DNA of 64,000 nt from Antedon bifida (Eukaryota > Echinodermata > Crinoidea > Comatulida > Antedonidae). Shown piece by piece: positions 26,278 through 59,000 of the stretch. How positions within the stretch are numbered: position 1 is the first letter of the stretch; each line of letters begins with the position of its first letter. A program made the translations under genes and the position numbers. The stretch is from contig OY727096.1 of assembly GCA_963402885.1 (NCBI GenBank), positions 22,983,820 to 23,047,819 of the forward strand, given 5' to 3'. Under the pieces are notes generated by a model. The model made no database searches, had not been told where the DNA came from, and saw only the letters and a list, made by a program, of their open reading frames with translations.

Positions 26278-29252
26278 TTAATCCTTTGACATGCTTTCAG
26301 CTCTTTTAACACCAGCCTCTATTCCCGATATCAAACAGTCCCGAAATCCTCCCTTTTCCAAGGCATGGATTCCACGTATAGTTGCACCGTTAGGAGAGCA
26401 AATGTTATCTTTCAGTTGACCAGGATGTAGGCCTGTTTCCAAGATCATTTTCCCAGCACCCTGGAAGTGAATTTTGTTAAACATTAATATGTTGACTTTG
26501 TGTGACACAAATTTTGCGTATGTACGTATGATTGTGTTTTAAAAAATCAGGGTTTGTTTGCAACTATGCTTGATTACTTAAACATTGTCTCCACTGTGCA
26601 CAAATAGTCTGTTGTTTAATGACCCCTGCTTGTGGGAACTGGCACACAAAAGAGCTAGTTTGAAGAACTATTGCGCTGGGGACAGCTTGGCTAGCCGATA
26701 ACTGGTGCACAGAGGACAGATTGGCTAGCCCAAAGAACTGGTGCACATTGAACATATTGGCTAGTCCGAATAACTGGTGCACAGAGGAGAGAGATTGGCT
26801 AGTACAAAGTACTGGTAGAAAGAGGACAGATTGACAAGCCTAACATCGTTTTAGGAGACATTTCACACTGGGCTCTTACTAAATACAATTAGAAATAAAG
26901 TAGGCAAACTAAAAAATATAAATGATAAAAAAAATAATAAAAAAAATTTTAAAAAATCTTACAATCAAATTGTTGGCAGCAATCTTGATGGCAATATCTC
27001 TCTGCATTCCGACCATAACAGAGCCATCAGCTAAAGCATCTACAGCTGAGAATAACTAATAAACATCAACTTAAATTATGCAAGTTGTTCAAAATCATTT
27101 AACATAACACAGTAGGACCCCTATTCAGGGGAGACCTTCAGGGCCAAAAATAGTGTCCCCCAAATAGGGGTTGGTCGTAGTGGTAAACCATATATTGTCC
27201 CTCGTTCATTTTTTGGGAAAATATTCATTTAATATGGATATATTGATATAAATATACAACTTCTGAAATAAAAGAAATTAAATTAAAAATAAAGATAACT
27301 CACAAATGCAGGTACAGCTCCGCAGCATATCGCGGCAGCATTCATGAGTCGTTCTTGGATTTCAAAGCACATGCCGACCTTTGACAAAAAGAGCTCAACA
27401 AGTTGTTTGTCTAAATCAGTGACCAGACTGTTGCCACAGTAACTACTGACACCAGCCAATACTAAGCAGGGCGTTGAGGGCATCACTCGTATAACTCTGC
27501 ATTCTTTACCAATATTCTAAAAGAAAAATAAATGAATTTCCAAAAGAACAGGCACTACGGCCAACTCCTATTCAGCAGGGGAAACTTTTTTGGGTCCCGA
27601 AGGTGTCCCCTTAAATAGCGGGTTGTGTTCCTGTAGTAATTTTTTAACAGATTGCATTACATTGATATTTATTAGTTATTCTCTACATCATATGGCAATT
27701 TCACACCATACAGTTTTGAGCATGATCTAAACTTTTGAGCATGGTCTAAACTTTTGAGCATGGTCTAAAATTTGAGCATGGTCTAAACATTTGAGCATGG
27801 TCTGAACTGTTGAGTATGGTCTAAACTTTTGAGCATGGTCTAAACTTTTGAGCATGGTCTAACTGTTGAGCATGGTCTAAACTTTTGAGGATGGTCTAAA
27901 TTGTTGAGCATGCTCTAAACCTATGAGCATGGTCTAAACTGTTGAGCATGGTCTAAACTTTTGAGCATGGTCTAAACCTTTGAGCAAGGCCTAAACTTTT
28001 GAGCATGGTCTAAAATGTTGAGCATGGTCTAAACTGTTGAGCATGGTCTAAACTTTTGAGCATGGTCTAAAATTTTGAGCATGGTCTAAACTTTTGAGCA
28101 TGGTCTAAACTGTTGAGCATGGTCTAAACTGTTGAGCACGGTCTAAACTTTTGAGCATGGTCTAAACTGTTGAGCATGGTCTAAACTGTTGAGCATGGTC
28201 TAAACTGTTGAGCATGGTCTAAACTTTTGAGCATGGTCTAAACCTTTGAGCATGGTCTAAACTGTTGAGCATGGTCTAAACCTTTGAGCATGGTCTTAAT
28301 TAATGTAGTTGTTTACATCTTCAATAAATTTGATGTCCATTCCAGCGATGACAGAAACTAGTAGCTTGTCTTTTGTGACCTCAGATTTGACCTCTGCTAA
28401 TACATCACCAAGTTGGTAAGGCTTACAGGCTAAGAATACCATGTTACAATCTTTCATTACTTCACTATTCACATTTGTTGTCTTCATGCCTTTTTCCTAA
28501 AAAAAATTCAATGACACATAAAAGTTGGAATTATCTGATAAAACTCCCCGACTGCTGTAATAAAATGAAACTTATATATTCTATAACGGTGCTACCATGC
28601 TTTCACAGCTACTGAGATTTATCATCTTTAGGGTTAGGTTCAGACCACAGGCGATGATAAAAAAATCTGGGTAATGCAGAATTAATGCCAAAATGACTCT
28701 GAGCTAGCCTATTTAGTGTTTAACTTATTTTGAAACTTACTTGCCACTTTACAAGATTTTTATCACTTGGTGCACTTGCCATAACACGGTCAGCTGTTAC
28801 AAGACCTGTAGCAATATAAACAATAATTGTACATTAAAACGTCTTTTTTAACCACAATGTAGTCCAGGTTCTAGATGGCGATTCAACTTTTTTTAAATAA
28901 ATAAATATTATGGCACACATGGCGTTTCATACGTATAATATAAACATGCTGTTTCAATAATTATGGTGTCATGTCTTGCCTAAGCACATACTTAACATCA
29001 AACAAGTCTAATAACTAGGCCTAAGCCTAATGAATGAGGCACCCTGCTTCCTCTCACGCATAAGCACCGGGACCATGGCCTAGCCTATCGTGTAGCCTAC
29101 TGCAGCGTGGCTCTCAGCTCTCTCAAGTCATCAAAGTCGATCGTCGATCGGTAGATTTCACACGCACCTGTTTTTACGAATCCAAACGCCATGGCTTGGG
29201 CCATATTACCAGCACCAATAAACCCAAGCTGGACCTTTTCTAATTCAGACAT
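26278..29252 (-). CDS. PYCR3: Pyrroline-5-carboxylate reductase, PYCR3-like
   Basis: NAD(P)H-dependent enzyme of the last step of proline synthesis (P5C to proline). Six exons in transcript order: 29252-29168, 28805-28741, 28496-28317, 27516-27304, 27055-26963, 26460-26278; 819 nt, 272 aa (human PYCR3 274). The Rossmann motif is [12 protein letters not shown] (residues 10-21). [10 protein letters not shown] after the first intron resembles PYCR3 more than PYCR1/2. The family signature [20 protein letters not shown] is at 227-246 and includes Thr239 at the catalytic threonine position. The normally well-conserved TGLSGSGPAY loop reads [13 protein letters not shown] (169-181). That departure may mean altered activity or merely lineage divergence. 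No mitochondrial presequence is seen, which fits a cytosolic PYCR3. Assignment to the family is firm; the paralogue less so. Confidence 0.9.
26650..26845. repeat. 34-38-bp degenerate tandem repeat in a PYCR intron
   Basis: ggctag recurs at 26689, 26723, 26759 and 26797, in units containing aactggtgcacagaggac and ttggctag. Period 34-38 bp, diverged. It lies in the last intron. Confidence 0.85.
27108..27190. repeat. Dispersed repeat (cctattcagggg ... gtcccc family)
   Basis: aggacccctattcaggggag ... gtgtcccccaaataggggtt. Related sequences occur at 27555-27640 and at 58370-58510 in a RIF1 intron, so this is an interspersed family of unknown type. Confidence 0.6.
27555..27640. repeat. Dispersed repeat, second copy
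   Basis: ccaactcctattcagcaggg ... gggtcccgaaggtgtcccct. Same family as 27108-27190, in the adjacent PYCR intron. Confidence 0.6.
27714..28300. repeat. 19-bp minisatellite in a PYCR intron
   Basis: About 30 copies of gagcatggtctaaactttt with variable last bases (tttt, gttg, cctt). It ends only 17 bp from the donor of the third coding exon (28317). On the transcript strand each unit carries a tttag word. Confidence 0.97.
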
Positions 29253-30989: not shown

Positions 30990-33900
30990 TTAAAAATAAA
31001 AATCTATTTCTCTCTTTGAAGATTCTGTGATCATGTGATTTATTACGTCACCTGATAGATTGCAATTCTTCATCCAAATCGCCCTCAGCTTAGGAGACAT
31101 AAGCAATAAAGAACCCAGTAAAGTACCATCGATGTTGTGGAGGTCATTACCAGAGATAACGAGAAACTCTAATGCTAAAATTACTCGTTTATCTGAACAC
31201 TCTTGAATCATGCTATTTATTATGTCATCTGATAGATTGCAATTACTCATGTCAAGCCTCCACAGTTTAGGAGACATAATCAAGAAAGATCCTAGTAAAG
31301 TACCATCAATGTTGTAGAGATTATTTCCAGAGATATCGAGCGAATATAATGCTAATTGAACTCGTTTATCTGAACACTCTTGAATCATGTGATTTATTAC
31401 GTTACCTGATAGATTGCAATTTAACATATCAAGCGAATTCAGTTCAGGAGACATAATCAATAAAGAACCCAGTAAAGTACCATCAATTTTGTCGAGCTTA
31501 TTACCCGAGATAACCAGAAATGCTAGTGCTAATTGAACTCGTTTATCTGAACACTCTTGAATCATGTGATTGATTACATCACCTGATAGATTCTGAATCG
31601 TAATTTTCTTACATTTAGCTTCAATGCCTAAAATATGTGCAATAACTCTTCCCTTGCACTCCAATGCCATCTTACTACAAAATGTATTTAAAGTGTTACT
31701 CTCTTCAATAATAGAAAACAATTCTTTGTCAACATATTCCATGCAATAAAGTTGCATAATTAGATGTACGAAATGCTCAATACAATGTACACCTGGACTA
31801 AGGTGATCAATAAACATTCTTATTGAAATAGATATATCATCCATATGGTTTTTTAGTTCTAAATCTTTGCTTTTCATGTAATGAATTAATGCATTTACCA
31901 CGGCATCTTTATCTTTTTTTTTTAACAAATTTAAATTACTCGGCAGAGACCGATATGTTGATAACTCATTTGTAATACAATGCCTTAACAGTTTATCAGC
32001 ATTAACACCAAGAAAACCAATTGCAAACTCTTTCGCCATCTTTATATGCCTACTCTCTCTTATCATTGCCCATTCATCATCATCCAATGGTGTAAGCAAT
32101 TGTCCTACATCTTCTGTGTATTTATTCTCCATTCCTTCACTTTCACATAATTTGAACAAATAAAATCCTACCAATGACTCTACTATCAACTTGTGAGGAG
32201 GCATAAAAATATTATCAAAGTTAGATTTTGAAATTGGTGCTTCTTCATAAACGAATCCCAGTTTTACGGCCATGTCAATCATATCTGTTTCAGAATGTGT
32301 ATCATTCAAATCGTTTATGTTTATTGAAAGCTTATTTACTTTTAAGCTTTTATACATACATTTTCCTAACAAAATCATAGCCTTTACATAATTGGCTGGT
32401 GTTTCTTCAAATTCAGAAATCTTTTGAACTTTTTCTTGAGTGTCTTTAAACTTTTGTTTGTTAATAAATTGATTCAAAATACTACGAAATATTTCCTTAA
32501 AAAGGTCCGTTTTATTTTCAGAAAGACGTTGATAGTCTTCCCATAGAATACAGATTGAAAGAAGTAACATTGGATTTTTGCACATAGAATATGCCTCTTG
32601 ATGTTTTCTTTCATGCCAAAATATGTCAATATATGTATCTAATTCCTCTCTAAGAGATTCTCCTAAGTGTGGTTTTTTAAAATACCCAAAGTATCTATCA
32701 ATATATTTTCCTATGCTCTCTTCATTAAATCCATTAACTCTTACATGTACGTTACACTCTTTTATGAATTCATCTATGTTTTCTGGACGTGAAGTAAGTA
32801 TCACAGTACTCTTCCCTAAGTTGTTCTTTCTGAAGAGACTAATTAAGCTTTGATTATTAAACCGTAATTCATCTAACCCATCTAACAACAAGACAAGTTT
32901 ATCATCATGGGAGAATAGAAAATCTAAAATCAACTCTGAATCTTTTGGAAGTTTTAGGTGTCTGTTGAAATCTTTCATATCCAGTTGCTTTTTAATCAGA
33001 TCTAAGATGTCATCTTGTTCTTCTAACTGTCTTACACTTAAAAAAAATACAATTTTACCTTCAAATACTTTAAATGATTTGCCAGTAGCCCAGTTGTATG
33101 ATAAATACCTTAACATAGTAGTTTTACCAATACCTCCCTCACCGTCAATGAGAACTTTACATTCTGGTGTGGAATCGATAACATTTATCATTTTTTCTAA
33201 AGTTGTTGGTTTGCAGCCCTCGTTGTTTTGAGTTTCTTTGAGTAGTTCCATATCTGTGAACATCTGCGAAATATCAACTTTGTATCTTTCCCGCATTATT
33301 TCTGGCGTAAATCTACAGTCTTTGCTACACAAGTGCTTTTGTTTTTTAACCAGATACTCTTCTATTTTTTCTAAATTCAGATAAAATAATTTAGTTAAAA
33401 TCGTATATTTAATCTTATTTAATAATTAATATAAAAAATAAATAACGTACACATTATTTGATTGCACTGTACAGTATTATCAAAGATCTTTGGTAGTGTC
33501 ACATCTTTAGTAATAAGATCTTTGGTATTATTCAATTACATTTATAGAGGGCGACAGACACAAACTAATCAGAAATAGACTATCATCATGACTTTGACTT
33601 TACCACCGAAATCATATCCATGATACATGATGTAGAAGCTGATATATGAGCAAAAATCTGTATTTTATGGCGGCCATTTTAAATCCAAAATGGCGGCTTT
33701 CCTCGGGCCAGATAAATTGGAACAGTTGAGAAACACTTAGGGATACTACGTCATGGTTTAATAAATAGTAATAAAAAGGATATTTTTACTTCGTTTGAAT
33801 AGAAGATGAGTATTCGATATAAATCAAACTACCACCATGATAAACTTTTGGTTCAGGTGTAAGTAACTAACCTGTTTCTGATTTAACCTCTTTTTGCATT

Positions 33901-35295
33901 CCTTGTTCATTCCTACTGGTTATCGCCACTTCTACTGTTAAATAAATAAACAAGAAAAATATGATATATGATATTAATTCCATGAAGCCAACGATTGGAA
34001 ACATAAATTCAGAAAAATTGTATTGTCATTTTGTTTATAAGAATTATAATTCAGCAGAAAGAAGAATAATAATAACTATTATTATTTGAACACACAATTA
34101 GGTTCATTGATTAATTTTTATTTGGTCAAAATAATTGTCAACATGTATACAAGACAACAACAAAAAATACACATAAAATAGAGTTAAAATGGTATAAGTG
34201 CAATAAAACAATAATTAAAAAAAAATTAGAAATCGTGAGTTAGAATATTGAAAATACAGTCATAAAAGATATAGTAAAATAAGTTTAATAAGGTATAAAA
34301 ATACATAACAAATTTAATGTATAAATAAATAAAAACCTGGTTAGAAAATGTTGAGTTGATTTGGCAACTTAAAAAGGTGTATTTTTTTTTATTTATTGTT
34401 ATTTTATTTGCTGTTTCTAGTTGTACAGTACTCAAAATCTGCATAGTTAAAATAAATAAATAAAAAAAAAACAAATTTGTTTATTTAGAAAACATGATCA
34501 AATGGCAAAAGTCAAAATGGGAGCCAGATTTTGGAATTGTTCTGGTTTTTTCCAAATAGTAATTATGTTTACCTACCTTTAGTCAGCGATGTTACGGCTA
34601 GCTTTCTGAGATTTTTAATAAATTCTTCCAGATTTTTGTTACAAAGAATTTGTCTATGTTCCAAATTCATGATCATACTCCAAGCATCTTTATAATTCTT
34701 TACAGGGGTATTGTACAGTCCATCAATTCTTGCAACATCATCTTGTGTCAGTCCATTTCCAAAATCTACAATTTGTAGTCGATATCGAGTAAACTTTGTA
34801 ATTGTAACTTCTCTAACGTTGAGAAGACATTGTTGAAGACCTTTGATGACACCAAACTGCTGGGTTACTTTTATTGTCTCATACAGTAACGCAAGATTAT
34901 CTGAACTTAAATTTCCAGAATTTCTCAATTCATTCAGTAAGTCTAACGTTGTCTTGGCTTTGTCTATGTTTGCTACTGCAATCAAATCTGCATATAAAAC
35001 TTTCAGCTGTCTGAGTAGGTCACGATCATCGTACCACGTTGAGATTGTAGTTAAAGTCAGGTTAAAATTTAAATCTACATCTTAAAAAATGGAAAAATAA
35101 GAAAATTAGAAGAAAGGGATACTATGTCATGTTATGGTTTAATAAATATTAATAAAAGGATATTTTTACTTCGTTTGGTCATAAGATTAGAAGATGAGTA
35201 TTCGATATAAATCAAACGAAAATAAATGAAATAAAATGAAATACACAATGCAATGCAACACAAAATACTTTTTATTTTCCATTACCTGTGGCCAT
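30990..35295 (-). CDS. NLR1: DED-like/NACHT/LRR receptor
   Basis: Putative cytosolic innate-immune NOD-like receptor of 985 aa. Four exons in transcript order: 35295-35286 (atggccacag), 35080-34577, 33934-33872, 33370-30990; all internal junctions are phase 1. Residues 4 to about 171 are helical and death-effector-like (DLLNELRNSGNLSSDNLALL), with a second similar bundle ending LEHRQILCNKNLEEFIKNL. A 21-residue linker exon follows. In the NACHT domain the Walker A is GEGGIGKTT (269-277), the Walker B LLLDGLDEL (about 353-361) and the sensor-like motif VILTSRP. HKLIVESLVGFYL sits where NACHT proteins have their conserved C-terminal block. Three two-LRR units (about 57 residues each; ISGNxLxxIDGTLLGSLL, then NLSGDVINHM) fill 780-985. 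No transmembrane segment. The ten-base first exon matches NLR2 exactly in structure. DED versus another death fold is inference. Confidence 0.88.
33741..33829. repeat. NLR1 intron repeat, copy A
   Basis: gggatactacgtcatggttt ... atgagtattcgatataaatc recurs in direct orientation at 35118-35219 in the first NLR1 intron. It probably marks past duplication of an exon-intron unit. Confidence 0.8.
35118..35219. repeat. NLR1 intron repeat, copy B
   Basis: gggatactatgtcatgttat ... atgagtattcgatataaatc; partner of 33741-33829 with about 13 extra bases. It lies between the ten-base first exon and the DED-like exon. Confidence 0.8.
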
Positions 35296-35931
35296 GTTGT
35301 CAACTCAATCTTCTGTCTTAATTCCTGAAAACAACACATTTAGAATACATAACCTCAAGCTGTTTAAGAACAAACTTTTGTTTGTAAAAAGTCAAATCGA
35401 TTCTTGCAATCAAAATATTCATAACATTTGAATTTAATAAATCATGACTTGATTCTTAAAGTTAATTTAGTATTACCACATTTTCTGACACACACAATTA
35501 TTTTAAATGATGAAAGGGGAAGAAATCAGATGGGGCCTGATTCTCACCGCCTTTGTATGAAATCAATATTTAAAAATAACTGCTAGTGTATCTTAGTAAA
35601 TTTATATTTTAATGGTAAATTATATTTAAATTCAAATTAATATAAATATTTGTAATAACATGTATAGATTAAGAAGTACGGGACGCCGTCTCGTATTCGT
35701 AATAACTGTATTTATGTTGACATAATCATTTATGTCCCGAACGACGCCCCATGCCAGAATAACATTGCTGGTTCACATAACAGTATTGTCATGTAGTCTA
35801 GGACCTGGGTCAGATTTGTATGCATTTAATTTAGGAGAGATTATCTCAACTGTTATAGGATAATTTGACCCCAAGGAACAACAGGGGATATGTGCCAAAT
35901 TTGCTATCCGGGGCGAACATGCCCAAAACCG

Positions 35932-35944
35932 GGGTCAAAGGTTA
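35932..35944 (+). promoter_or_regulatory. DR1-like nuclear receptor site
   Basis: GGGTCAAAGGTTA, one mismatch from a DR1 (two AGGTCA-type half-sites, spacing 1). One of four in the foldback element. Function not shown. Confidence 0.3.
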
Positions 35945-36074
35945 AAAATGTGTGGTTCTTAAATCTCGACAACCACTTGTCGATTTGGTTTTGGTGTCAA
36001 ATTGTTCAGAATATACATATTTATATTCGGTCTAACACAACTTTTAGTGAAAAAATGACCGGAAATGCTTTTAC

Positions 36075-36087
36075 TGACCTTTGACCC
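36075..36087 (-). promoter_or_regulatory. DR1 nuclear receptor site
   Basis: TGACCTTTGACCC, the complement of GGGTCAAAGGTCA. It fits the RXR/HNF4/COUP-type DR1 consensus and is repeated at 36611 and, inverted, at 38052. Confidence 0.35.
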
Positions 36088-36610
36088 AAAAATGACCAAA
36101 AACACATTTTCGGGTTAAATTATTCTTTAAAATGCAAATGGACAAACTGTATGGTATCAAATAAAAGCATACACAATATGCTACCCATTGCTATCAAACT
36201 TGTATTGAAAAAATTTAATTATGAAGCTAATTGTATGGAAAATGTGCATATTTTGATTACTTCTATAGAAAAAATGAATATTTGGTAGCGTAATTGTTAT
36301 GTTTATTTATATAATATTAAATAATTTAAGTGTTTGGAAAAACTATTTGGTATCAATTGAAAGCCCATAAAATATTCTATCCATTGCTACCCAACTTGTA
36401 TTAAAAATCTGTAATTATGATGCTAATTTTGTTAAAAATGTGCATATTTTATTATTTTTTAACAAAAATGAGTATATTAAATAGTGTAAATGTATTTTGG
36501 TTTATTTATAATATTAAATAATTCAAATGTTCTTTTGGTGTCAAATTATTAAGAATATACATATTGACATTCACAACTTTTAGCGAAAAAATGACCGGAA
36601 ATGCTTCTAC

Positions 36611-36623
36611 TGACCTTTGACCC
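36611..36623 (-). promoter_or_regulatory. DR1 nuclear receptor site
   Basis: TGACCTTTGACCC again, in the internally duplicated part of the left arm of the foldback element. Confidence 0.35.
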
Positions 36624-38051
36624 CAAAATGACCAAAAACACATTTTCGGGTTAAATTATTCTTTAAAATGCAAATGGACAAACTGTATGGTATCAAGTAA
36701 AAGCATACACAATATGCTACCCATTGCTATCAAACTTGTATTGAAAAATTTTAATTACGAAGCTAATTGTATGGAAAATGTGCATATTTTGATTACTTCT
36801 ATAGAAAAAATGAATATTTGGTAGCGTAATTGTTATGTTTAAAAATATTCTATCCATTGCTACCCAACTTGTACTGAAAATCTAATTACGATATTTAAAA
36901 AAAAAAATGTGCATATTTTATTAATTTTTAACAAAAATGAGTACTGTATACTGTACGTAAGTGCAAGTAGTGTAAATTTATTTTGGTTTTTTGTATAATA
37001 AATCAATATTTTTTAGGTTTATTGAACTATGTTACATATCAAGCCAATCAAATGCTATCCAATTGAATTGTAAAGTTAAAATTATAAAGCTAATTTAGAA
37101 ATTTTTATATATTTTGGTTTATTATACATTTAATTCTAGTGTTTTAAATAACTAATTGGTATCAAATTAAACCCCATAAAACATGCTACCTAGTACATAC
37201 ATATTATCCAATATGTATTGAAAATGAATCTTTTGTTTTTAAATATAGAATTATATAATATTATAAATAAACCAAAATAAATTTACACTACTTACTGTAT
37301 ACTCATTTTTTTCAACAAAAAAGAATATTTTCAAAAAAGTCATAATTGAAGATTTTCAATACAAGTTGGGTACCAATGGATAGTATATTGTATGGGGTTT
37401 TATTACTTATACCAAATATAACGCTAGAATTATTTAAACCAAAATAAATTTACACTAATTTATACTCATTTTTTACTAAAGTTAATAAAATATGCACATT
37501 TTCCAAAAATAGCATCACATAATTAAACATTTTCAATACAAGTTGGGTAGCTATGAATAGCATATTTTATGTGCTTTCCTTTGATACCAAATATGTCTTC
37601 CAAACATTTGAATTATTTAATATCATAAATATTAAAACCAAAATACATTTACACTATCTAGTATACTCATTTGTGTCAAAAAAACAATAAAATATGCACA
37701 TTTTTTACAAAATTAGCATCATAATTACAGATTTTTATTACAAGTTGGGTAGCAATGGATAGAATATTTTATGGGCTTTCATTTGATACCAAATAGTTCT
37801 TCCAAACACTTAAATTATTTGATATTATATAAATAAACATAACAATTACGCTACCTAATATTCATTTTTTGTATAAAAGTAATCAAAATATGCACATTTT
37901 CCATACAATTAGCTTCATAATTAAGAATTTTCAATACAAGTTGGGAAGCAATGAGTAGCATATTGTGTATGCTTTCATTTGATACCATACAGTTTGTCCA
38001 TTGCCATTTTAAAGAATAATTTAACCAGAAAATGTGTTTTTGGTCATTTTT

Positions 38052-38064
38052 GGGTCAAAGGTCA
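38052..38064 (+). promoter_or_regulatory. DR1 nuclear receptor site
   Basis: GGGTCAAAGGTCA in the right arm of the foldback element, the inverted counterpart of the site at 36075. Confidence 0.35.
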
Positions 38065-38360
38065 GTAAAAGCATTTCCGGTCATTTTTTTGCTAAAAGTT
38101 GTGTTAGACCGAATATAAATATGTATATTCTGAACAATTTGACACCAAAACCAAATCTGTACGACAAGTGGTTGTTGAGATATAAGAACCACACATTTTT
38201 AACCTTTAATTGACTCCGGTTTTGGGCATGTTCGCCCCGGATAGCAAATTTGGCACATATCCCATGTTGTTCCTTGGGGTCAAATTATCCTATAACAGTT
38301 GAGATATTCTCTCCTAAATTAAATGCATACAAATCTGACCCAGGTCCTAGACTAATGACA

Positions 38361-42121: not shown

Positions 42122-45100
42122 TCAATTAAAATCAATTTCTCTCGTAGAACATTCTGCCTCCATGTGATTGAGTACGTCATCTGATAGATTGCAATTACTC
42201 ATGTCAAGCATCGTCAGCTTAGGGGCCATATTCAATAAAGAATCCAGTAAAGTTCTATCGATATCGAAGAGCTTATTACCAGGGATATCGAGTCCTTCTA
42301 ATGCCAATTTAACTTGTTCATCTGAACACTTTTTAATCATGTGATTTATTACGTCACCTGATAGATTGCAATTACTCATGTCAAGACTCATCAGCTTAGG
42401 AGACATACTCAATAAAGAACCCAGTAAAGAACCCAGTAAAGAACCCAGTAAAGTTCCATCGATATTATAGAGCTTATTACCAGGGATATCGAGCCTTTCT
42501 AATGCTAATTTAACTTGTTCAACTGAACACTTTTTAATCATGTCTTTCATTACGTCACCTGATAGATTGCAATTCCACATACAAAGCTTTCTCAGCTTAG
42601 GAGAAATAATCAATAAAGAACCCAGTAGAGTGCCATCAATGTTGTCAAGATTATTTTCAGAGACATCGAGCTCAGTTAATGCTAACTTCTTTGAACACAC
42701 TTGTTGAATCATGTTATTTATTACGTCACCTGATAGTTTGCAATTACTTATGTTAAGGCTCCACAGCTTAGGGAACATAATCAATACGGAACCCAGTAAA
42801 GTACCATCAATTGTGAGGAGAGTATTACAAGAAATATCGAGGCAACCTATAGCTAATTGAACTTGTTTACACTCTTTAATCATGTGATTGATTACTTCAC
42901 CTGATACATTGCATTTCCTCATGTAAAACCAGCTCAGCTTAGGAGACATAATCAATAAAGAACCCAGTAAAGTACCATCAATGTTGAAAAGATCATTACC
43001 AGAGATATCGAGTGAATCTAATGCTAATTGAACTTGTTTATCTAAACACTCTTCAACCATGCGATTCATTACGTCACCTGAGAGATTCTTAATCGTAACC
43101 TTGTTACATTTAGCTTCAATGCTTAAAATGTGTGCAATAACTTTTCCCTTGCACTCCGATGCCATCTTACTACAAAATGTATCCAAACTGTTGCGTCTAG
43201 TAAAATTCGGTTCTTTCATACAATAAAGTTTCTGAAGTAGACCTATGAAATGATCTTTACATTGTACACTTGGACTAATGTGGTTAATATACATTCTTAT
43301 GGAGTTAGATATATCAGCCATATTATGCTTTGTTATTTCTAAATCTTTGCTTGTCATGTGATTAATTAATGCATTTACCACAACATCTTCATGTTTTTTA
43401 GCCAAGTTTAAATTACTCGGCAGAGAGCGACATGTTGATAACTGATCTGTTATCCAATGCTGTAAAAACTTAACAGCGTTAGAACCAAGGAAGCCAATTG
43501 CAAACTCTCTCGCCATCTTTAAATACTCACTTTCCCTAATTACTTCCCATTCATTATCATCTAATGGTGTGAGTAATTGTCTTACATCTTTTGTGTATGC
43601 ATGCTCCATACCTTTACTTTCACATAATTTGTATAAGTAAAATCCTACCAATGACTCTACTATCAACTTGTGAGGAGGCATGAACATTTTTTCAAAGTTA
43701 GATTTTGAAATTGGTGCTTCTTCGTAAACAAATCCAAGTTGTAGGGCCATGTCAACCATATTATCTTTAATTGATAGTTTTTTCAAATCTTTTTTGTTTA
43801 TTGAAAGTTTATTTTTTTTCAAATTATTATACATAGATTTTCCTAACAAAATCATAGCATGTATATATTTGTCTGGAGTGTTTTCAAACCTAGAAATCTT
43901 ATCGCTTTCTGTTTGTTTGATAGACTGATTAAAAATAGTACGAAACATTTCTTTAAAAAGGTCAGTCTTATTTTTAGGAAGACTTTGATGGTCCTCCCAT
44001 AGAATACAGATTGAAAGAAGTAGCATTGGATTTTTGCACATTAAATATGCTTCTGGATAGTTCCCTCCGGTCATATACTGTGTGCCAATATCTAATTCCC
44101 TCTTAAGAGATTCTCCAAATTGTGGCTCTTTAACTTGCATAAAGTATTTGCCAATATACTTTACAATGCTCTCTTCACTAAATCCATTAACTCTTACGTG
44201 TATGTCGCTTGCTTTTTTGAATTCAGTTATGTTTTCTAATCGTGAAGTTACTATGACAATACTTTTCTCTAATTTTTTTTTTTTGAAAAGACTAATTACG
44301 CGTTGATTATCCAATCTTAATTCATCTAAACCATCTAATAACAACACAATTTTAACATCATGAGTCATTAGAAAATCTTCAATAGAATCTTTTGATAGTT
44401 TTGTACGCCTGCTGAAATCTTTCATATCCACTTGCTTTACAATCATATCTAAAATATCGTCATCCTTTTCTAAATCTCTTAGACTTAAAGGAAATACTAT
44501 TTTACCTTCAAATACTTTAAATGATTCGCCAGTAGCCCAATTGTATGATAAATACCTTAACATCGTAGTTTTACCAATACCGCCCTCCCCGTCAATAAGA
44601 ACTTTACAAGATTTGATTTGATTTGGTGTGGGTTCGATAAGCTTTACCAATTCTTCCAGTGTTGTTGGTTTATTTCTTGTATTGTTTTCCCCTACCTTGA
44701 GCAGTTCCATATCGGTAAACATCTGCGAAATGTCAACTGTATATTCTTTATTCATCGTTTCTGGTGTAAACTTACTGGCCTCGCTGCAGATGGTCTTTTG
44801 TTGTCGAAGCAGATATTTTTCTATCTTTTCTAAATGCAAAAATAAATAATAACTAGAATTTAATTCGTCACTTTGACGAATTATAGGTGATCATTTTTAT
44901 CATTTTACTGAAATTAATTTTTTTAAACATGCACGTACGTTAACATACGATCGGAAAATGTTGATGTATGCCATCCTATTATATGCTTATAGTGCTGAGT
45001 TGTGCCTATATGCCATATACAATATGTACACTATATACAGTGTAGCATAGGTGAAATTACGGGACACACATGTTCTAATTTTTTGGCATGATGACGTTAT

Positions 45101-48100
45101 CAAACTAAACTTTAAGATGACAATTTCGAAAGATAATTAATTGAGCAAAAAAATATAAGATTTTGAAAAAAATTTGGCACGTAGAAGCGCTGTGCGCGCT
45201 CTTTGAATTGTGTATAACTTTGACGAAAAATTTGAAAAAACTACTTTTTCAATTCAACTGGCCATATGTTAACGTCACAACATCCGATAGGCTTAATTTT
45301 TATATGAATTAATATCTACATTTCATCAGCTTTCATAATAAATTATAATCATCAAGGTAACCTTCAATTCTGAAGAGCTGTAAGATATTCAAATTTACTG
45401 CGAAGGTGAAATTACACGGCCTACGTTATTCAAGTTTTTACGCGTGATGACGTCATTAAAATGAAGATAGTGTCAACTCATGATAAAGATAATTAATTAA
45501 GCAAGCACATACTGAAAGTTGTGCGAAATTCGAGCACACATAACCAAGATGCGCTCTGTTGAATGTGATAATCTACACAAAAAGATAACAAATCCTAATT
45601 TTTAAATTCAAGTGGCCATTTGATGACGTCAAAACATTTTGTACGTAAAGTGTGTACATGAATTCATATCTACAACTCAATGGCTTCCAGAATAAGTTAA
45701 AAAAATCGGGGGTCATCTTGCATTCTGAAGAATTATTTTCATTTTAAAAAAGACCTATTTTTCACCATTTTCAGAACTTTTGTAAAATTAATATGCGCAT
45801 TTTGTCATTTTTAACGTGCTCGTATAGCGTTATTTTAAGTCGGAACTGACTCAAATTTGGTGAATGTACTAAGGATGGTGAGTAGAATGAGATTTGTAAA
45901 AAAAATTCATATTTTTTACGCTTTTTAAGTATCGCGCGCGCAAAAACGCATTTTTGCGCAGTAATTTTTTGAAACACGCAAATGGCCTAATTCATGCTCT
46001 AAATTGATCAAAACTTAATTTTGAGCGTTTTAAATTTTTAACGCGCGATATCACGCGCATGAACCTACGTGCGCGTGCGTTTTTATTTGCTAATATTTTT
46101 ACCCTTGACCTGAAGTTTACGTGTAGTGAATTTCATTAATATGTGATAATGAATTATGGAGATATGATTGATAATGTGATTTCGCAAAATGGCGTATAAA
46201 TGTCGTCACGGATGAGTGATCATGCTGGAAAGCTTATTAGGATTAAGTTATATTATTTGAAAGATATTCTGAAATTTTGGTAATCATTGACATTAAACTT
46301 TTTGAGATAATTGTTACACAAAATAGTGTACAGAAACAATAAAAAGAAAAAAAATAAAGATTTCATACAATAACAATAGGTGATCATTTAGCATTCTAAA
46401 TGATCACCTAATAACAATAATAATAAATACCTAAAATATAAAAAATTATTCAGATGAAATCGTAAACTGAATCTAATTTTATATAGCGTTATATTGTTAT
46501 TTTAAAATAATTATATTTTTGATATAATGATGCATCACCATACACATACATGATTGTTTGATTCTTTTTTAGACCTTGTCAATAACGTGCTTGTAATAAT
46601 AGAGGGCGACAAACATAATTTGTAATCAACCAGAAGAAAACTTTTGTTGAAAATATCCCAACAGAAGGCAGCAAACAGAAAATAAATTTATCACAATTGA
46701 ATAGGTTTTTAGGACGCAGATTTGGTCAAATCAACTCAACAAATTCATGAACGCTATTATATTTTTTGGAATCTACATACACTGTTATCGTAACATTCTT
46801 TTTTCCACTATAATAACAATAACATAGAATTGTCATTGATTATGAATGAAACTTGTTTGCTTGTGATTAGAAAAGTCTTAGCCTAATCAACAAAAATGCA
46901 GAAACACATAATTGTAATTCAGCATATATATTTGCAGGATATTTTTCGTCATGGATACTTCCTTTATGTTATGAACAGATACTTCAGATATTTTGTCTGC
47001 CTAATGACTTAGATATATTTGTTGCCGTCTGGTTATGTGTAAAAAATATAAACATAAAACAAAACGACTTAGGTTACTACAGGCACTTATCTTGGGTCAT
47101 ACTTATTTTATTCATATAAAATATAATTTGAATCATTGAATCGATGCAAACATTGTGGTTCAGTCCAGCAAAAAACAAAAATAGTTAATTAACTGTAAAC
47201 CGAAAAACAAAAAAATAATATGTTCAAGGCGATCACAGTTAATCATAACGAAAATAAATTATTCAAATCCGACCATTTGTCTATACATAAAAAAAAAATA
47301 GTGAATACTTTTTGGAGGGGAACATACTCTCCTCTTTTAATAAATCTTAGTTTTTTTTGAATTTTTAAACAATCTTGTGAGTCTAATCAAGCCAGAGTTA
47401 TTTGTAATTTGTCTTCATTAATTTGACTCTTCAAATAAAAACAAAATTACAGTTTGTGTGATTAAAATGTTTAAAACCTAACATTACCCCATAGTATGGG
47501 AGTAATTAATGCTCCTACCATGGACCTATAAATTAGATACCTGGAATATGTAGGCCTACATATTCTGTAGTTTAGTTTATGATTATATTTTTGTTCTGTA
47601 CAGTAGGCCAGACTATTTTACACAAAATGTTTACTACTGATTGTTAAACAAAAATATATATAAGATATTTTTACTAACCTGCTTCTGTAACCTCTGTTTG
47701 CTTTCCTTGTGCTTGGTTGCTAGTCGTTGACACTTAAATAAAATAAATAAATAAAAAGAGGAAACAATTGAATTTACAATGATTTATTGTGTTATTTGAT
47801 GACCATTATTGCTAATTTGTTTTCCACTGTTACGATTAAGAGTAATAAATGAATAATTGGTTAAAGCCTGGTTCAAACCTGAAAGAAGACGTAAAATGTA
47901 AAATAATTCGAAAATCGTATTTAGAATTGAACTGCGCCGACTTCCATTGCGAGAAACTTTCACTCACCTGTTCCTGATTTAAACTCTGCTTGAATTCCTT
48001 GTCCTTGGTTACTAGTTGTTGGCACTACAAATACATAAAACAAGAAAACAAAATGAATTTACAATGATTTATTGTGTTATTTGATGACCATTATTACTAA

Positions 48101-51100
48101 ATTGTTTTCCACTGTTACGATCAAGAGTAGCAAATGATTTTATGGTGATGATTTTAAATTCATTTATTTTACATTACATCAAATTTGTTAAAACCTGGCT
48201 CAAACACGAAAGAAGACGTAAAAATGTAAAATAATTCGAAAATCGTATATCGAATTGAACAGCGCCGATTTCTATTGCGTGAAACTTTCACTAACCTGTT
48301 TCTGATTTAAACTCTGTTTGAATTCCTTGTTCTTGGTTACTAGTTGTTGGTACTACAAATAGGCCTACATAAAAAAGAAGAAAAAACATTGAATTTACAA
48401 TGATTTATTGTGTTGTTTTGTTCAAATGACCATTATTAATATTGATTGGTTCACACCCGTTTTGTTAAATAGTGCAAAAATGTATTAATTTAGAATTAGC
48501 GCCAACTTCCATTTCGTGAAACTGAACAATGTGAATGGAGCTTTAATGTCTGTCATGTTCAGTGTTCAGTTTATAAGAAAAATAATTCACATTGAAAAAA
48601 CAGCTGTACAGTTATTCAGAAATGTATTCCAATTATAAACATTATTTTAGCTTGCGTCAAATTGCAATGAGGCCTAAAACGGTTTCCTGTAAACAATTTC
48701 AATCGACTATTTTAAAACGTAAAAATCAATCAATATAATGATAAATAAATAGATTAATATCCAGACATAAAATATCTTTGCTTGTTTGATCGTTACCGTA
48801 ATACATGCATAAATCTTTTTCAAATTTAAGGACAATTAGGAAATATAATTCTGTGACGTCCTGTTGCCTAAATTGAGTAAACAAGTTACATATCAACCAT
48901 ATGGGAATAAAACATACTCTCTGTATTGCTTGATGGTTCGGTTTCCCTCCTTGGTCGTTCAGGCCTACCTATAAAGAAATTGTTTAGTAAAATAGTTAGA
49001 TTATCAATTTTTGATGTATTCACTCTTTTACAACTAATAGAATATTTCTCGCACACCATTCTACTACCTATATCACCAGGGACGACCAACGACAAAATGT
49101 GCATAGGTCCTAGTTCATCACAAACCTATACTCTTTATTATTTATACTAAAAAACAATCATCAATTTACATTATAGCTTGATGATGCATTGCAATAAATT
49201 AGTGACACAATTCATGTAGCCATCCAGAATATTAACTTCCTAATGTGTTTGTTGGAAATATGTAAGAAATATATTCTATATAAAATGTGAAAACTGACAT
49301 CAAAGTTGCTTAAATTTAAAAGTAGAATATTGACACCAGAGCCCTATAAATATAAAACATACTTTTTTTATTGCTCCATGATGGTCCAGGTTCACTCCTT
49401 CGTCGTTTATTGTTTGGTCGTTTACCTATATAAAAAATGTGTTTTAGTATAGTTACAATATCAATTGTGATGAATAGTAATACTATAAAAATATTTTAAT
49501 ATATTAGCTGTGATATAATGTCATTGAACTACAGTTGAATTTTGCATTTATTATTACTGTATTATTGTTTTATTAGACAAAAAAGAATTAGAGAATTCAA
49601 AAATTAAAACGTAAATTAGAAAAAGGCCAATATATAAACAGTAGACAAGCATATTTGGTTTAATATTATTTTATCCATATAAAATTGTTGACAATTCATC
49701 ATTGAATCGGTGGCACATACTAAAAGGGAAAAACCTCCAAAATAAAACATTGTGAACTTTATTAAACCTAAGAACGGAAGTAAAATAATCCGTTTAATCC
49801 AATCCAGTTATGCTAAGAAAACAAATTATACAAATTTCACAATTTTTCTACAAAATGTATCAAAATAACAATTAGGAAGGGGTACAGACATTGCGCATTT
49901 AATAAACTTCATCACACAAAAAACATTACCGCATAATGTACAGAAATCTGTGATTTCATTTTGTTGATATAACCTTAAACATCAAACGAGCGCCACCACA
50001 AATAGGGTATTTTTTACTAACCTGCTTCTGTAACCTCTGTTTGCAATGCTAGTTCTTTGTTACTAGTCGTTTGCACTTCTAAATAAATAAATAAAAAGAT
50101 AGCAAAATGAATATGTATTGTACGGTACCTCACGAAAAACAATGGTTGGCAACATAAATTCATATGTGTTCCATTTTTATAAGAAATATTATTTACATCC
50201 ATTCAATTAAAAAAAAACATTTATTTCTCTTTCTTAATCGAATACAAGAATCAGTTAAATTGTATATGAAAGCCGAAGCTTGTGTCAGAATGCACTTACT
50301 ATGTATAAAACAGAAACGAAATAAAAAAGTTATGCAGCAGAACTATTTCCATATTACGCGTGTTTGAATAAAATGTAATAAATGTTGAGAAAATGACTTG
50401 CGCTGTAAATATTTTACTAAAAGCGTCGCATTTCTTCAAAACGACGCTGCTAATTTCCACTTTATACGGTAAAATATAATCAACTAAAAGCATTATGTGA
50501 AAGGGCTATCATTTCTGGGCTTACAGTGTACTTGTATTGTGACATTATTTTTTCTGAAAAAAGTTATAAGGTTATATCCAGACATGAAACGTTTTTTGCT
50601 TGTTTGTTTGTTTGATATCGTAGAACATAAATTATACTATAGGGCATCATGCATGGTGTTTAGATTTTAAAAAAAATATTGAACAGTTAATTGTTCTAAA
50701 CTTGATCCCCGCATTACCACATACCTTTGGTCAGGCATATTACCGTTGATTCCAGTCCAATTTGTTTTAGCCTGTTGGTAAATTCTTCAATTTTTTCTTT
50801 ACAAAGTATTTGTCGGTGTTCCAAATCTAGAATCATGCTCCAAGCATCTTCATAATTCGTTAAGGGATCATTGTAGAGTGAATCGATTTTCTTAATATCA
50901 GCCTTTGTCAGTCCATTTTCGAAATCTACAATTCTTTGTCGATATGGGGTTAAAATTGTAATTTCAACTTCACGAACTTCGAGAAGACATTGTTGGAGAT
51001 ATTTAATAACACCGAACGTTTGAGTTACCTTTATTGTTTCGTAAAGTATCTTAAGCTTTTCTGAACTTAATATTCCTGATTTCCTCAATTCATTCAGTAA

Positions 51101-51440
51101 GTCAATCGTTGTACCGGCTTTGTCTATGTCTGCAACTGCAATTAAATCGTGGTATAACACTTTCAGCTGTTTGAAGAGGTTGTGTTTATCATACCATTCT
51201 GATACGTTCACTAAATCCACATCAAAATCTACGAAAATTGAAATAAGAAGGTTATAAAATGTGAGGTTAAAAAACGTAACGTTTGAATTTGTTATGATTA
51301 GATAATTATTGATAGATAAAATAGATTATTTGAATTTCATTATTTTCGTTACTGTTTTAACTTTATATGTGAGACCAGCACCATCATTTCCATTTGAGAA
51401 GGAATAATATATTATCTCATCTTATCTTACCTGAAGCCAT
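42122..51440 (-). CDS. NLR2: DED-like/NACHT/LRR receptor with extended linker
   Basis: Paralogue of NLR1, 1186 aa, nine exons in transcript order: 51440-51431 (atggcttcag), 51228-50725, 50078-50022, 49425-49363, 48968-48918, 48352-48296, 48024-47968, 47732-47679, 44829-42122. All junctions are phase 1 and the total of 3561 nt is in frame. Residues 4-171: DED-like (TIDLLNELRKSGILSSEKL) plus a second helical bundle. 172-284: six short linker exons of 51-63 nt. Four (57, 57, 57 and 54 nt) resemble each other (TTSNQxQG, TSNKE); two encode Arg/Pro/Ser-rich stretches. NACHT: Walker A GEGGIGKTT (365-373), Walker B LLLDGLDEL (about 447-455). Five two-LRR units fill about 876-1186, with an LLGS tandem in the fourth. 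Head-to-tail with NLR1 on the same strand; likely cytosolic immune sensor. Splicing of the two Arg-rich exons is the least certain part. Confidence 0.87.
42409..42456 (-). repeat. 12-bp in-frame repeat inside an NLR2 LRR
   Basis: aaagaacccagt is repeated three times and encodes LLGSLLGSLLGS on the minus strand, against a single LLGS in the other units. The reading frame is kept. Confidence 0.9.
44885..46409. mobile_element. 1.5-kb TA-flanked repeat element in the last NLR2 intron
   Basis: The left end is taggtgatcattt and the right end aaatgatcaccta, so short inverted ends next to TA. Two diverged tandem units of about 355 bp (about 45050-45405 and 45406-45760) share gtgaaattac, gataattaattgagca and atgaattcatatctaca-like phrases. 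The rest is rich in cgcgcgc words. No open frame long enough for a transposase. The element boundaries are inferred. Confidence 0.6.
46378..46409. repeat. Perfect hairpin at the right end of the TA-flanked element
   Basis: aggtgatcattta (46378-46390), six-base loop, taaatgatcacct (46397-46409): 13-bp perfect arms flanked by TA on both sides. Confidence 0.92.
47660..48560 (-). repeat. Tandemly duplicated exon-intron units in NLR2
   Basis: Three units of about 290-330 bp, each containing one linker exon (47679-47732, 47968-48024, 48296-48352) and the same intron phrase tttacaatgatttattgtgt. The second and third exons differ at only a few bases. Confidence 0.9.
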
Positions 51441-53942: not shown

Positions 53943-54056
53943 GGATTAACAAGACCATATACATGGCTGCAGTCGCGTGCTCAAATTTGAGTTAGTGTTT
54001 ACCGACCGACCAACCGACCGACCGACCATCCGACCAACCGACCGACCGACATAGTG
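53943..54056 (-). repeat. CGACC-rich repeat, inverted partner of 39345-39445
   Basis: aagaccatatacatggctgc, agtcgcgtgctcaaatttga and a run of accgaccgacc words. Reverse complement of the 39345 copy with a longer simple-sequence part. Confidence 0.88.
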
Positions 54057-56054: not shown

Positions 56055-59000
56055 ATGATGGTAACAGTTACTCACGTCAGCGATGATGGCGAAGGGGTCG
56101 CTAAATTTCCCCAAATTCTTAGCAAATTGGAAGCAAAGGGAGTTTTATCAGAAGAAAAGTTAGAAGCATACAAGAAGCTAACAGAGTAAGTTACCCGGTG
56201 ACAGCAAATTTGGTTGCGATAGCATCTTCCAGAATTTTAATCATATTATCATTATTGAGTACAAGGGTCAGTCCGGCTTTACAATAACCACCTCGCTTTT
56301 ACTCAATATTGCCTGGAGGTATATATTTTTTGGTCTACCAACTTGAAACAAGACCAATTTCAAACGTGACACTGATCGTAAACCCCTTTCCCCTTATTTA
56401 AATCGTTTTCCCAACTTTAATGCAACTTAAATGCAATAGATATCTGCAATTAACAATTACATGAATTATTAATTATACTGTAACTACTATTATATCATTA
56501 GTTTTATTATTTCAAATGCGAAATTAACATTAGAAAATTTCTTTTTAGAAAGTTATATAAAGACAACTTAGGGGAATTTGTAGCAGAGTTTACTCAGAGT
56601 GGGTCAAAGCTTGTCAACATATTCTGCGTTGATGTAATGAGCACGTCCCCTGATATTTCCCAGGCTGCATTGCAAGCTGTTGGCTTCTGTATTTATCACG
56701 AAGATATAATCAAAATCTTATCTGAACCAGACATTGATATTCTTTTAAAAGGTATCTATTTTATTTTATTACATAAAATGATAATTTATAATAATTACAT
56801 CATGAAAAGTACTCTTGATTAAACTTGGGACAAGCATGTTAATGACCAAACTTAAATTATATTTTTTTAAATTGAATCTGTTCAGGTGTGCCAGTTTTAT
56901 TTTTAAAGCATCATTGCAAAATGTTTGTGGAAAAGTTTAACCTCATTACTCCAGGATGGCTTAATTTAAAACCTTTTCAGTACAATAATGGTAATTTTGA
57001 TATCGTGTGTATGGATGCATAACGAACAAGCATCCAAGATGTTGAAAAGTGGGACATTTTGGCCGCTATATTGGATCCAAGATAATGTTAAAATGTCATA
57101 TAAACCTTCCCAGTACAATTACGGCCATTTTGATACCCTGTGATGTATGGATGCGTGCAGAAAAAAAAATGTGTATCACAAACAACCCTGGAAACTCAAT
57201 TCTATATATATATAGACATTCCTAGCCTAATTAGCTAAATTTTTATCAACTCACAATAACATGATCACTTTAAATAAATTATTTTTTATTTAGCCCTTCA
57301 GAATGTCTTGCTAAAAACAACAGATAAAGGAACTTGTACTCGTGCATTGTGGTGTATCGCTAAGCAGAGCTTTCCCGTCAGTCATGTCAAAGATCATGTA
57401 TGTACATTTTGTAATTAGTAACTGATTGATTGTTTTTGAGGCAAATATGTTTTTCTAGACTAGTGAAATTCCTCAAACATTGATACAAAATAGAATTTTT
57501 AAAATGCGTAGGAAAGAAATGATATGATTTATGATCTGTCTATCACAGTTGCTCAGAAATGATTTTCGTTGGCGTGGCGGGTCAATGTGATATTGATAGA
57601 GCTGCAATTTTGTTGTATTTTTAGTGAAACTATGTGTGTGTAATATGGAATGAACAGTTTATGATTTTATTCATTGATAATTTGTTTATGTTGTGCAGAA
57701 TGAAATGTTAAAGAATAAAAATATTGACATCCCATAATTACTTTTTAAGCGGTCGTTTGACCTCCCTGACCCCAGTTCCTATGATGTGTTATTGATATTG
57801 TTTTCTGTGTATTGCAGCTACATGGATTATTGTGTTCTCTGGAACATGTTCTTGTGAATGGTGAATTTAAATCTGTTACAGTTGAACATGAGGCCATCAA
57901 TGCAATTATCAAGTAAGTAATAACCATGCTTCTGTTACATACAATACAATACATTTAAAATCTTAAAATCCTGTTTAGGTGGTTTACTTCAGATAACAAA
58001 ACAGCTTAATTAATTCAAATTTCTCTAATTTCAGGCTTCTGGAATCATTACCAAATGAAATGCATGTCAACACTTTACGATGGTCGAAGCTGATACTGCC
58101 CTCCCTTGTGCACTCAGCTGTGAAGGTCCGCTTGAAAGCTTTGAATGCTTTTGAGTTAGCTTTACCTGCTATGGTGAAGTTTAGTCAGGATCTATCCTCA
58201 TCTGTTGTACACATCCTAAAGACAAGTCTCATAGCAGAGATGAATAAGCTCTTTGCCTGCAAGCATGAACTATATGTCCTCAAGATCTGGGGCTACTTTT
58301 TGACCGTACTTGGCAAGGTTAGGATTTTCATATTTATATTGTTTTATTAACAACAGCAGAAATTGAACTCCTATTAAAAGGACACATTTGGGACCCAATA
58401 AACTGTCCCCTGAATTTGTTCAAACATGTGTTACCCCTTGTTCGTTTTAAAATAAAGTTTCCCCTTAATAGCGGTGCTCCATGAATAGGAGTGTCCCCAA
58501 GAAGAGGTTCAATATATTACGCTTTTAGGTCAATGAAAAATCTTTAAAAATGTACATTGAAAGAAACAAATGTATGAATCAAATCAAATACTTCTTCCCT
58601 TCAGACATTGCATCGAGGTGGCAGTTTGATCAATTCCATGCTAGGAATAGTTGAGCAAGGGTTTAAGCATCAACTCACAGATGTTAAGATTGGTACTTTT
58701 AATGCTTGGAAAATTCTTATTGAGAACTTTGCACTTGATCCAGGTAAATTCAACTTAATTAATTTTGCATAAGTATCTAACCTGAGTATGTTCTATTGAT
58801 TTTCTATACAAGTTGTCAGCACTATTTTGTTAAATGTTATCTCTTTTTTTTCAGATGTTATTTACAACCAGAAACGCATCAAACTATTAGTGCAGCCTTT
58901 TAAAGTGAACAATGCTAAGACGGAAAAGGTTGCCATGGTGAAATTTGATGTATGGTGGTTTCTGATAAAGAAATTTGGACCAAAGGCTGCAACTAATTTT

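Follow-up and report, generated by a model that had tools for sequence, protein, structure and literature searches.

The question raised by the stretch of DNA analysed here, 64,000 nucleotides of Antedon bifida contig OY727096.1 (assembly GCA_963402885.1, forward-strand positions 22,983,820 to 23,047,819; referred to as the window, with positions counted from its first letter), is how two neighbouring immune-receptor genes came to differ in the linker between their death-effector and NACHT parts. By their sequences, the two genes, designated as NLR1 and NLR2, are adjacent paralogous animal NLR genes with a striking difference in this linker, which is predicted to be encoded by six exons (339 nt, 113 residues) in NLR2 and by one exon (63 nt, 21 residues) in NLR1. 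The answer that is considered probable is that one ancestral exon, termed type A, was copied in tandem in NLR2 and that a basic exon, termed type B, was duplicated as well, which would likely have produced a long, probably disordered tether with a basic patch.

Genes in the window have a eukaryotic structure. The gene models of NLR1 and NLR2 were assembled by hand from splice sites, and two long minus-strand open frames of 811 and 922 codons (stop to stop) with NACHT and LRR matches lie at their core. The NLR2 model (minus strand, 51440-42122) encodes 1186 residues and the NLR1 model (35295-30990) encodes 985 residues, with no internal stop in either. The layout is common to both genes and consists of an ATG exon, a death-effector exon, one or more linker exons and a NACHT-LRR exon. 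The first coding exon of NLR2 (51431-51440, minus strand; ATG GCT TCA G) ends in phase 1 and has its counterpart in NLR1 at 35295-35286 (ATG GCC ACA G). The death-effector exons, of 504 nt each, were placed at 50725-51228 in NLR2 (phase 1 at both ends) and at 34577-35080 in NLR1, and align to each other at 63% over 170 columns. The NACHT-LRR exons, up to the stop codon, were placed at 42122-44829 and 30990-33370, respectively. Every coding intron in both models is in phase 1.

Pfam NACHT was above its cut-off in both genes (E 4.4e-20 for NLR2 and 2.6e-23 for NLR1). LRR_1 reached 27.2 bits in NLR2, above the cut-off of 20.6, and 18.2 bits in NLR1, below it. For DED, with a curated cut-off of 35.9, NLR1 passed at 38.6 bits and NLR2 (E 4e-08) fell just under it at 33.8 bits. 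Among the 20 PDB matches listed for NLR2, chains of NLRC4 and NLRP3 as well as ribonuclease inhibitor matches were found, and the best match was 5irm, an entry named 'Uncharacterized protein' that we take to be NOD2. No PDB match to E 0.1 was obtained in a sequence search with the death-effector exon, and the single-sequence fold of this exon (pLDDT 49.6) was too poor for use. Judged by the domain matches, the NACHT, the LRR and the N-terminal DED of a death-effector NLR are all represented. The search for relatives gave one pattern match in viral contigs and nine in prokaryote genomes, none of them confirmed, in collections that are ill-suited to animal genes. The LRR region of NLR2 (42122-43100) aligns to that of NLR1 in several offset registers, and the number of LRR units, within one exon, may differ between the two genes; a short GSLLGSLLGSLL run was also observed in this region of NLR2.

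The linker exons of NLR2, all on the minus strand, were numbered from E1 to E6 in the order of transcription. E1 (type A, 50022-50078) has 57 nt, or 54 nt via the second of two adjacent acceptors; E2 (type B, 49363-49425) has 63 nt and is polybasic; E3 (type B, 48918-48968) has 51 nt and is basic, with a weak donor; E4 (type A, 48296-48352) and E5 (type A, 47968-48024) have 57 nt each; and E6 (type A, 47679-47732) has 54 nt. The sole linker exon of NLR1 (type A, 33872-33934, minus strand) has 63 nt. All seven are in phase 1 at both ends, so that the original prediction of six symmetric phase-1 exons of 51-63 nt in NLR2 and one in NLR1 could be placed in full. The symmetry of the linker exons is no separate surprise, as it follows from the single phase in which the coding introns of the two models all lie; by the same token, each copy adds 17-21 residues and the frame remains intact. 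At E1, the adjacent in-frame acceptors (50075-50081, TTTAGAAG) could gain or lose one residue, and alternative in-frame acceptors are also found at E4 and at the linker exon of NLR1.

The evidence for duplication was obtained from alignments of the exons together with their flanking introns. When the linker region was compared with the window, an off-diagonal self match of 76% over 498 columns (E 1e-110) was found. E4 and E5 are equal at 53/57 bases, and their introns agree at about 80% on the upstream side and 88% on the downstream side, which bears out the earlier claim of units of about 300 bp with common intron sequence and near-identical exons. The introns before E4, E5 and E6 match one another at 75-81% over 65-267 columns, those after E1 and E6 at 68% over 192 columns (E 5e-07), and the E2/E3 block is homologous into its introns at 72% over 125 columns. 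Each of the four A exons of NLR2 is matched by the linker exon of NLR1 at 72-76%, with a longer match of 70% over 194 columns for E1, and most introns around the linker exons do not align between the two genes. On these alignments the six NLR2 linker exons are two duplicated families: type A, which comprises E1, E4, E5, E6 and the NLR1 exon and has TTSNQ-like peptides, and type B, which comprises E2 and E3 and has basic peptides, e.g. KRPNNKRRR and RPERPRRE. Adjacent homologous exons, homologous flanking introns and equal end phases were all found, and the tandem duplication of symmetric linker exons, as it had been predicted, is well supported by the sequence and is extended here by E2/E3 as a second duplicated pair.

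Since intron as well as exon sequence is common to the units, they might also be regarded as exonised copies of a dispersed transposable element. This is extremely unlikely, as, apart from the linker region with its downstream intron and the NLR1 linker exon, only two weak matches were found in the window, at 13501-13561 on the opposite strand (E 3e-4) and at 34448-34474 (29 columns, E 0.001). The transposable-element origin was rejected on the basis that no convincing dispersed copies are present in the window, no search having been aimed at terminal repeats of the units.

The last A exon, E6, lies at the junction of two kinds of sequence: its upstream intron resembles those of E4 and E5 (75-81%), and its 3' half and downstream intron resemble those of E1. 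A one-switch model from E5-like to E1-like sequence fits 49/53 of the sites that separate E1 from E5, with gap columns not counted, and none of 10000 permutations was as good. When E4 was required to equal E5 and gap columns were counted, 41/44 sites fitted, again with 0/10000 permutations as good. By this pattern a recombination junction lies in or near E6. With NLR1 used for polarisation, three derived events inside E6 are common with E1 (47725, 47682 and a 3-nt deletion) and one is common with E4/E5 (47715). A switch placed in mid-exon between 47703 and 47701 was given up, as several of the placing sites are private E1 changes under the same polarisation. The junction may have originated as a duplication junction or through unequal crossing-over or conversion. 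Upstream of E4, a piece of repeat-unit intron (48463-48523, minus strand) was found without a preceding A exon; it matches 47897-47958 at 77% over 65 columns and is probably either the array edge or a remnant of a lost unit.

From these observations we infer the following order of events. As in NLR1, the linker of the ancestral gene would have been encoded by a single short type-A exon in phase 1; this exon and its introns would have been copied in tandem within NLR2 in at least two rounds, a basic type-B exon would have been duplicated likewise, and the copies would have been joined or reshuffled through recombination. The first copy would retain the old left flank, for which the evidence is weak, and the last copy, beside NACHT, would retain the old right flank. 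A 63-column stretch of the E1 upstream intron that matches that of NLR1 at 73% (E 0.001) fits a first copy with its original 5' flank kept.

The timing of these rounds was estimated from silent divergence between NLR1 and NLR2, with dS at 0.43 for the NACHT-LRR exon and 0.71 for the death-effector exon (dN/dS 0.47 and 0.34, respectively). The intron differences between E4 and E5 (12-20%) are below these values, which would place the E4/E5 round after the gene duplication, barring a reset by conversion. This may not be the case for the older exon pairs. The flanks of E2 and E3 (52-65% identity) and the downstream introns of E1 and E6 (about 67% identity) show a divergence near the gene-pair dS of 0.43-0.71, by which the origin of some copies may go back to before the gene duplication, and it is accordingly conceivable, if less probable than growth in NLR2, that NLR1 is a reduced copy of a multi-exon ancestor from which all but one linker exon were lost by recombination. 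The younger E4/E5 pair (introns at 80-88%) speaks against such a reduction, as does the BLAST analysis of the NLR1 linker introns, in which neither a B exon nor a second A exon was found.

Whether all six candidates are exons was evaluated by a chance control, in which open candidate exons of 40-80 nt, symmetric and in phase 1, were counted against 200 shuffles. With donors of at least 8/9, four phase-1 candidates were obtained against a shuffle mean of 0.085, and 0/200 shuffles reached four. With looser donors the excess was smaller: five candidates against 0.745 at a donor score of 7 (which admits E2) and ten against 3.7 at a score of 6 (which admits E3), the observed count being reached by 2/200 shuffles at both settings. 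The control is weakened by phase 0, which at donors of at least 8/9 also gives three candidates (0/200 shuffles), and by the four strong-donor candidates being copies of one exon and so not independent. On account of the dependent copies, the phase 0 score and the weaker looser settings, the shuffle counts were no longer taken as proof of coding and were kept as mere support. The alignments and the phase fixed by the flanking exons provide the stronger support.

Gap lengths point in the same direction: they are multiples of 3 in 3/3 cases between exon copies and in 5/19 cases in introns (p about 0.02), where the exon gaps of 3, 9 and 3 hinge on the chosen splice sites and an extra gap of 3 nt where E1 begins, which merely reflects the choice of acceptor, is excluded from the count. 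These three gaps, together with the open state of all six exons in the phase set by their neighbours and of every exon subset, and with donor scores of 8 or 9 of 9 in 4/6 linker exons, make it unlikely that only some of the candidates are real, with the other copies surviving as relics within one long intron and the mature protein carrying a short, NLR1-like linker. In favour of such relics are the moderate donor of E2 (7), the weak donor of E3 (6) and the absence of a synonymous-site signal of constraint.

Several points weigh against the proposed copying of one A exon into a long tether. E3 has a weak donor (AGA|GTATGT). The similarity between the introns of E1 and NLR1 is likewise weak, and the E1 upstream intron also matches that of E6 over 19 low-complexity bases. 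The E6 junction may sit at the acceptor instead of in mid-exon, and may be a plain duplication junction and not conversion. The comparison is limited to two genes. E4 and E5 are not significantly closer in their exons than in their introns (4/57 against 31/200 differences, p 0.13). No purifying selection was detected in the A exons, with 20/125 replacement against 3/34 silent differences (Fisher p 0.41) in a pool of 3/10 pairs that were picked as near-independent, all 10 having been computed; in this the A exons differ from the NACHT-LRR and death-effector exons, with their dN/dS of 0.47 and 0.34. Given this absence of amino-acid constraint, the copies may serve as near-neutral filler or may not be used at all; the pattern suits a spacer valued for its length or composition over its sequence, and it would suit filler too. 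Selection on the linker was rejected as a claim in either form, as neither a purifying nor a diversifying mode could be shown with so small a number of sites.

Inclusion of the linker exons could also be variable. The frame is open to the normal stop in 64/64 exon subsets of NLR2 and in 2/2 of NLR1, which sustains, on a sequence basis, the earlier claim that exons could be lost or skipped in frame. The introns between the near-identical exons are short, at 271 nt before E5 and 235 nt before E6, and a splicing cassette might be envisaged, in which receptors would vary in the number of A exons and in the presence of the basic B exons. Such a cassette is regarded as rather unlikely; for NLRP3, whose exon 3 is analogous, natural skipping was reported as not observed in human cells, as far as the text at hand of that study goes (PMC13226650).

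If all six exons are included, which is assumed in the tandem-copying model, the most likely product would be a receptor with a hydrophilic tether of 113 residues and a basic patch. In composition the linker has 57% S/T/N/Q/G/P and 12% aromatic, aliphatic or Cys residues, and its B part has a pI of 11.6 with 12 K/R in 38 residues; it is from this composition that we infer a probably disordered state. The tether would set the reach of the death fold, and perhaps its binding to a surface, relative to the NACHT oligomer. The basic patch is reminiscent of the NLRP3 linker, although it could equally be a nuclear signal. A more far-reaching proposal, that the linker is a two-letter cassette of A spacers and basic B patches, varied across paralogues, individuals or isoforms and retuning location and reach, is speculative and on balance quite unlikely; if true, such a cassette would be an evolvable dial between sensing and signalling.

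Other features of the window were recorded as follows. Just upstream of NLR1, at 35794-38354, there is a large imperfect inverted repeat with arms of 479 nt (95%) and 145 nt (98%), which is possibly a foldback element or a DNA transposon. An exon of a pyrroline-5-carboxylate reductase gene was found on the minus strand at 26281-26538 (P5CR_dimer, E 1.6e-16), and an exon of a RIF1 homologue on the plus strand at 57997-58347 (Rif1_N, E 9.6e-14). Plus-strand open frames to about 63360, for which no significant Pfam match was obtained, presumably belong to the same RIF1 gene. An ACCG microsatellite of 12.5 copies is located at 54001-54050.

Tandem duplication of symmetric exons is a long-described general mechanism, and the mechanism in NLR2 is the same; what is particular is its setting, between the signalling and sensor domains of a death-effector NLR. 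Among NLRs, the zebrafish NLR-B30.2 / NLR-C genes have short N-terminal peptide-repeat exons of two main types whose number can vary (PMC4852459, PMC11192531), each N-terminal peptide being carried on a single exon; exon shuffling as well as gene conversion has been inferred for them (PMC4852459). In the passages of these reports that were available, which give neither exon phases nor the repeat position relative to a death-fold domain, the likeness to NLR2 lies in short repeat units in an N-terminal extension upstream of NACHT. The differences lie in the units, of about 30 residues in zebrafish and 17-21 in NLR2, and in the LRRs, which are on separate exons in zebrafish and inside the NACHT exon in NLR1 and NLR2. 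The zebrafish NLR-B30.2 family is further defined by FISNA and mostly B30.2, both of which are absent from the 10 Pfam matches listed (to E 0.1) for each NACHT-LRR exon of NLR1 and NLR2, so that the two genes fall outside that family.

A second comparison is offered by NLRP3, in which, according to the portions of the source that could be consulted, exon 3 is one short exon for a 40-residue PYD-NACHT linker with a polybasic motif, natural skipping was not observed and the exon is absent from some NLRs (PMC13226650). Skipping of this exon in human cells did not significantly change IL-1beta release, and deletion of the linker altered the oligomer form and Golgi recruitment with the inflammasome still functional (PMC13226650). 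NLR2 is like NLRP3 in having short exons between the death fold and NACHT and a basic motif, and unlike it in having an array instead of one exon and a death-effector fold instead of PYD; tandem duplication is not mentioned for NLRP3 in those portions. At the LRR end of NLRs, modular exons permit variation by alternative splicing, which was shown with transcripts (PMC6642158); from the part of that report available, modular NLR exons are what is shared, whereas the array of NLR2 concerns the linker and is known from sequence alone.

The original prediction had supposed that such an array was not described as a general feature of NLRs. In the source texts as available, this does not hold for variable repeated N-terminal exons, which are known in zebrafish NLRs, or for a single linker exon, which is known in NLRP3. 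For invertebrates, no report of NLR linker-exon arrays was found at the level of titles and abstract openings, with subscription journals mostly uncovered. Exon copying is already known in fish receptors, and NLR2 is a clear example of it, not a revolutionary one. As the linker between the death fold and NACHT matters for the oligomer form and membrane recruitment of NLRP3 (PMC13226650, as far as its available text goes), two paralogues, one with a single linker exon and the other with six and a visible recombination junction in its array, offer a natural test of whether immune receptors are tuned through the length and charge of this linker. From the known cases the NLR2 array differs in gene family, in death-fold type, in unit length and in its visible recombination junction.

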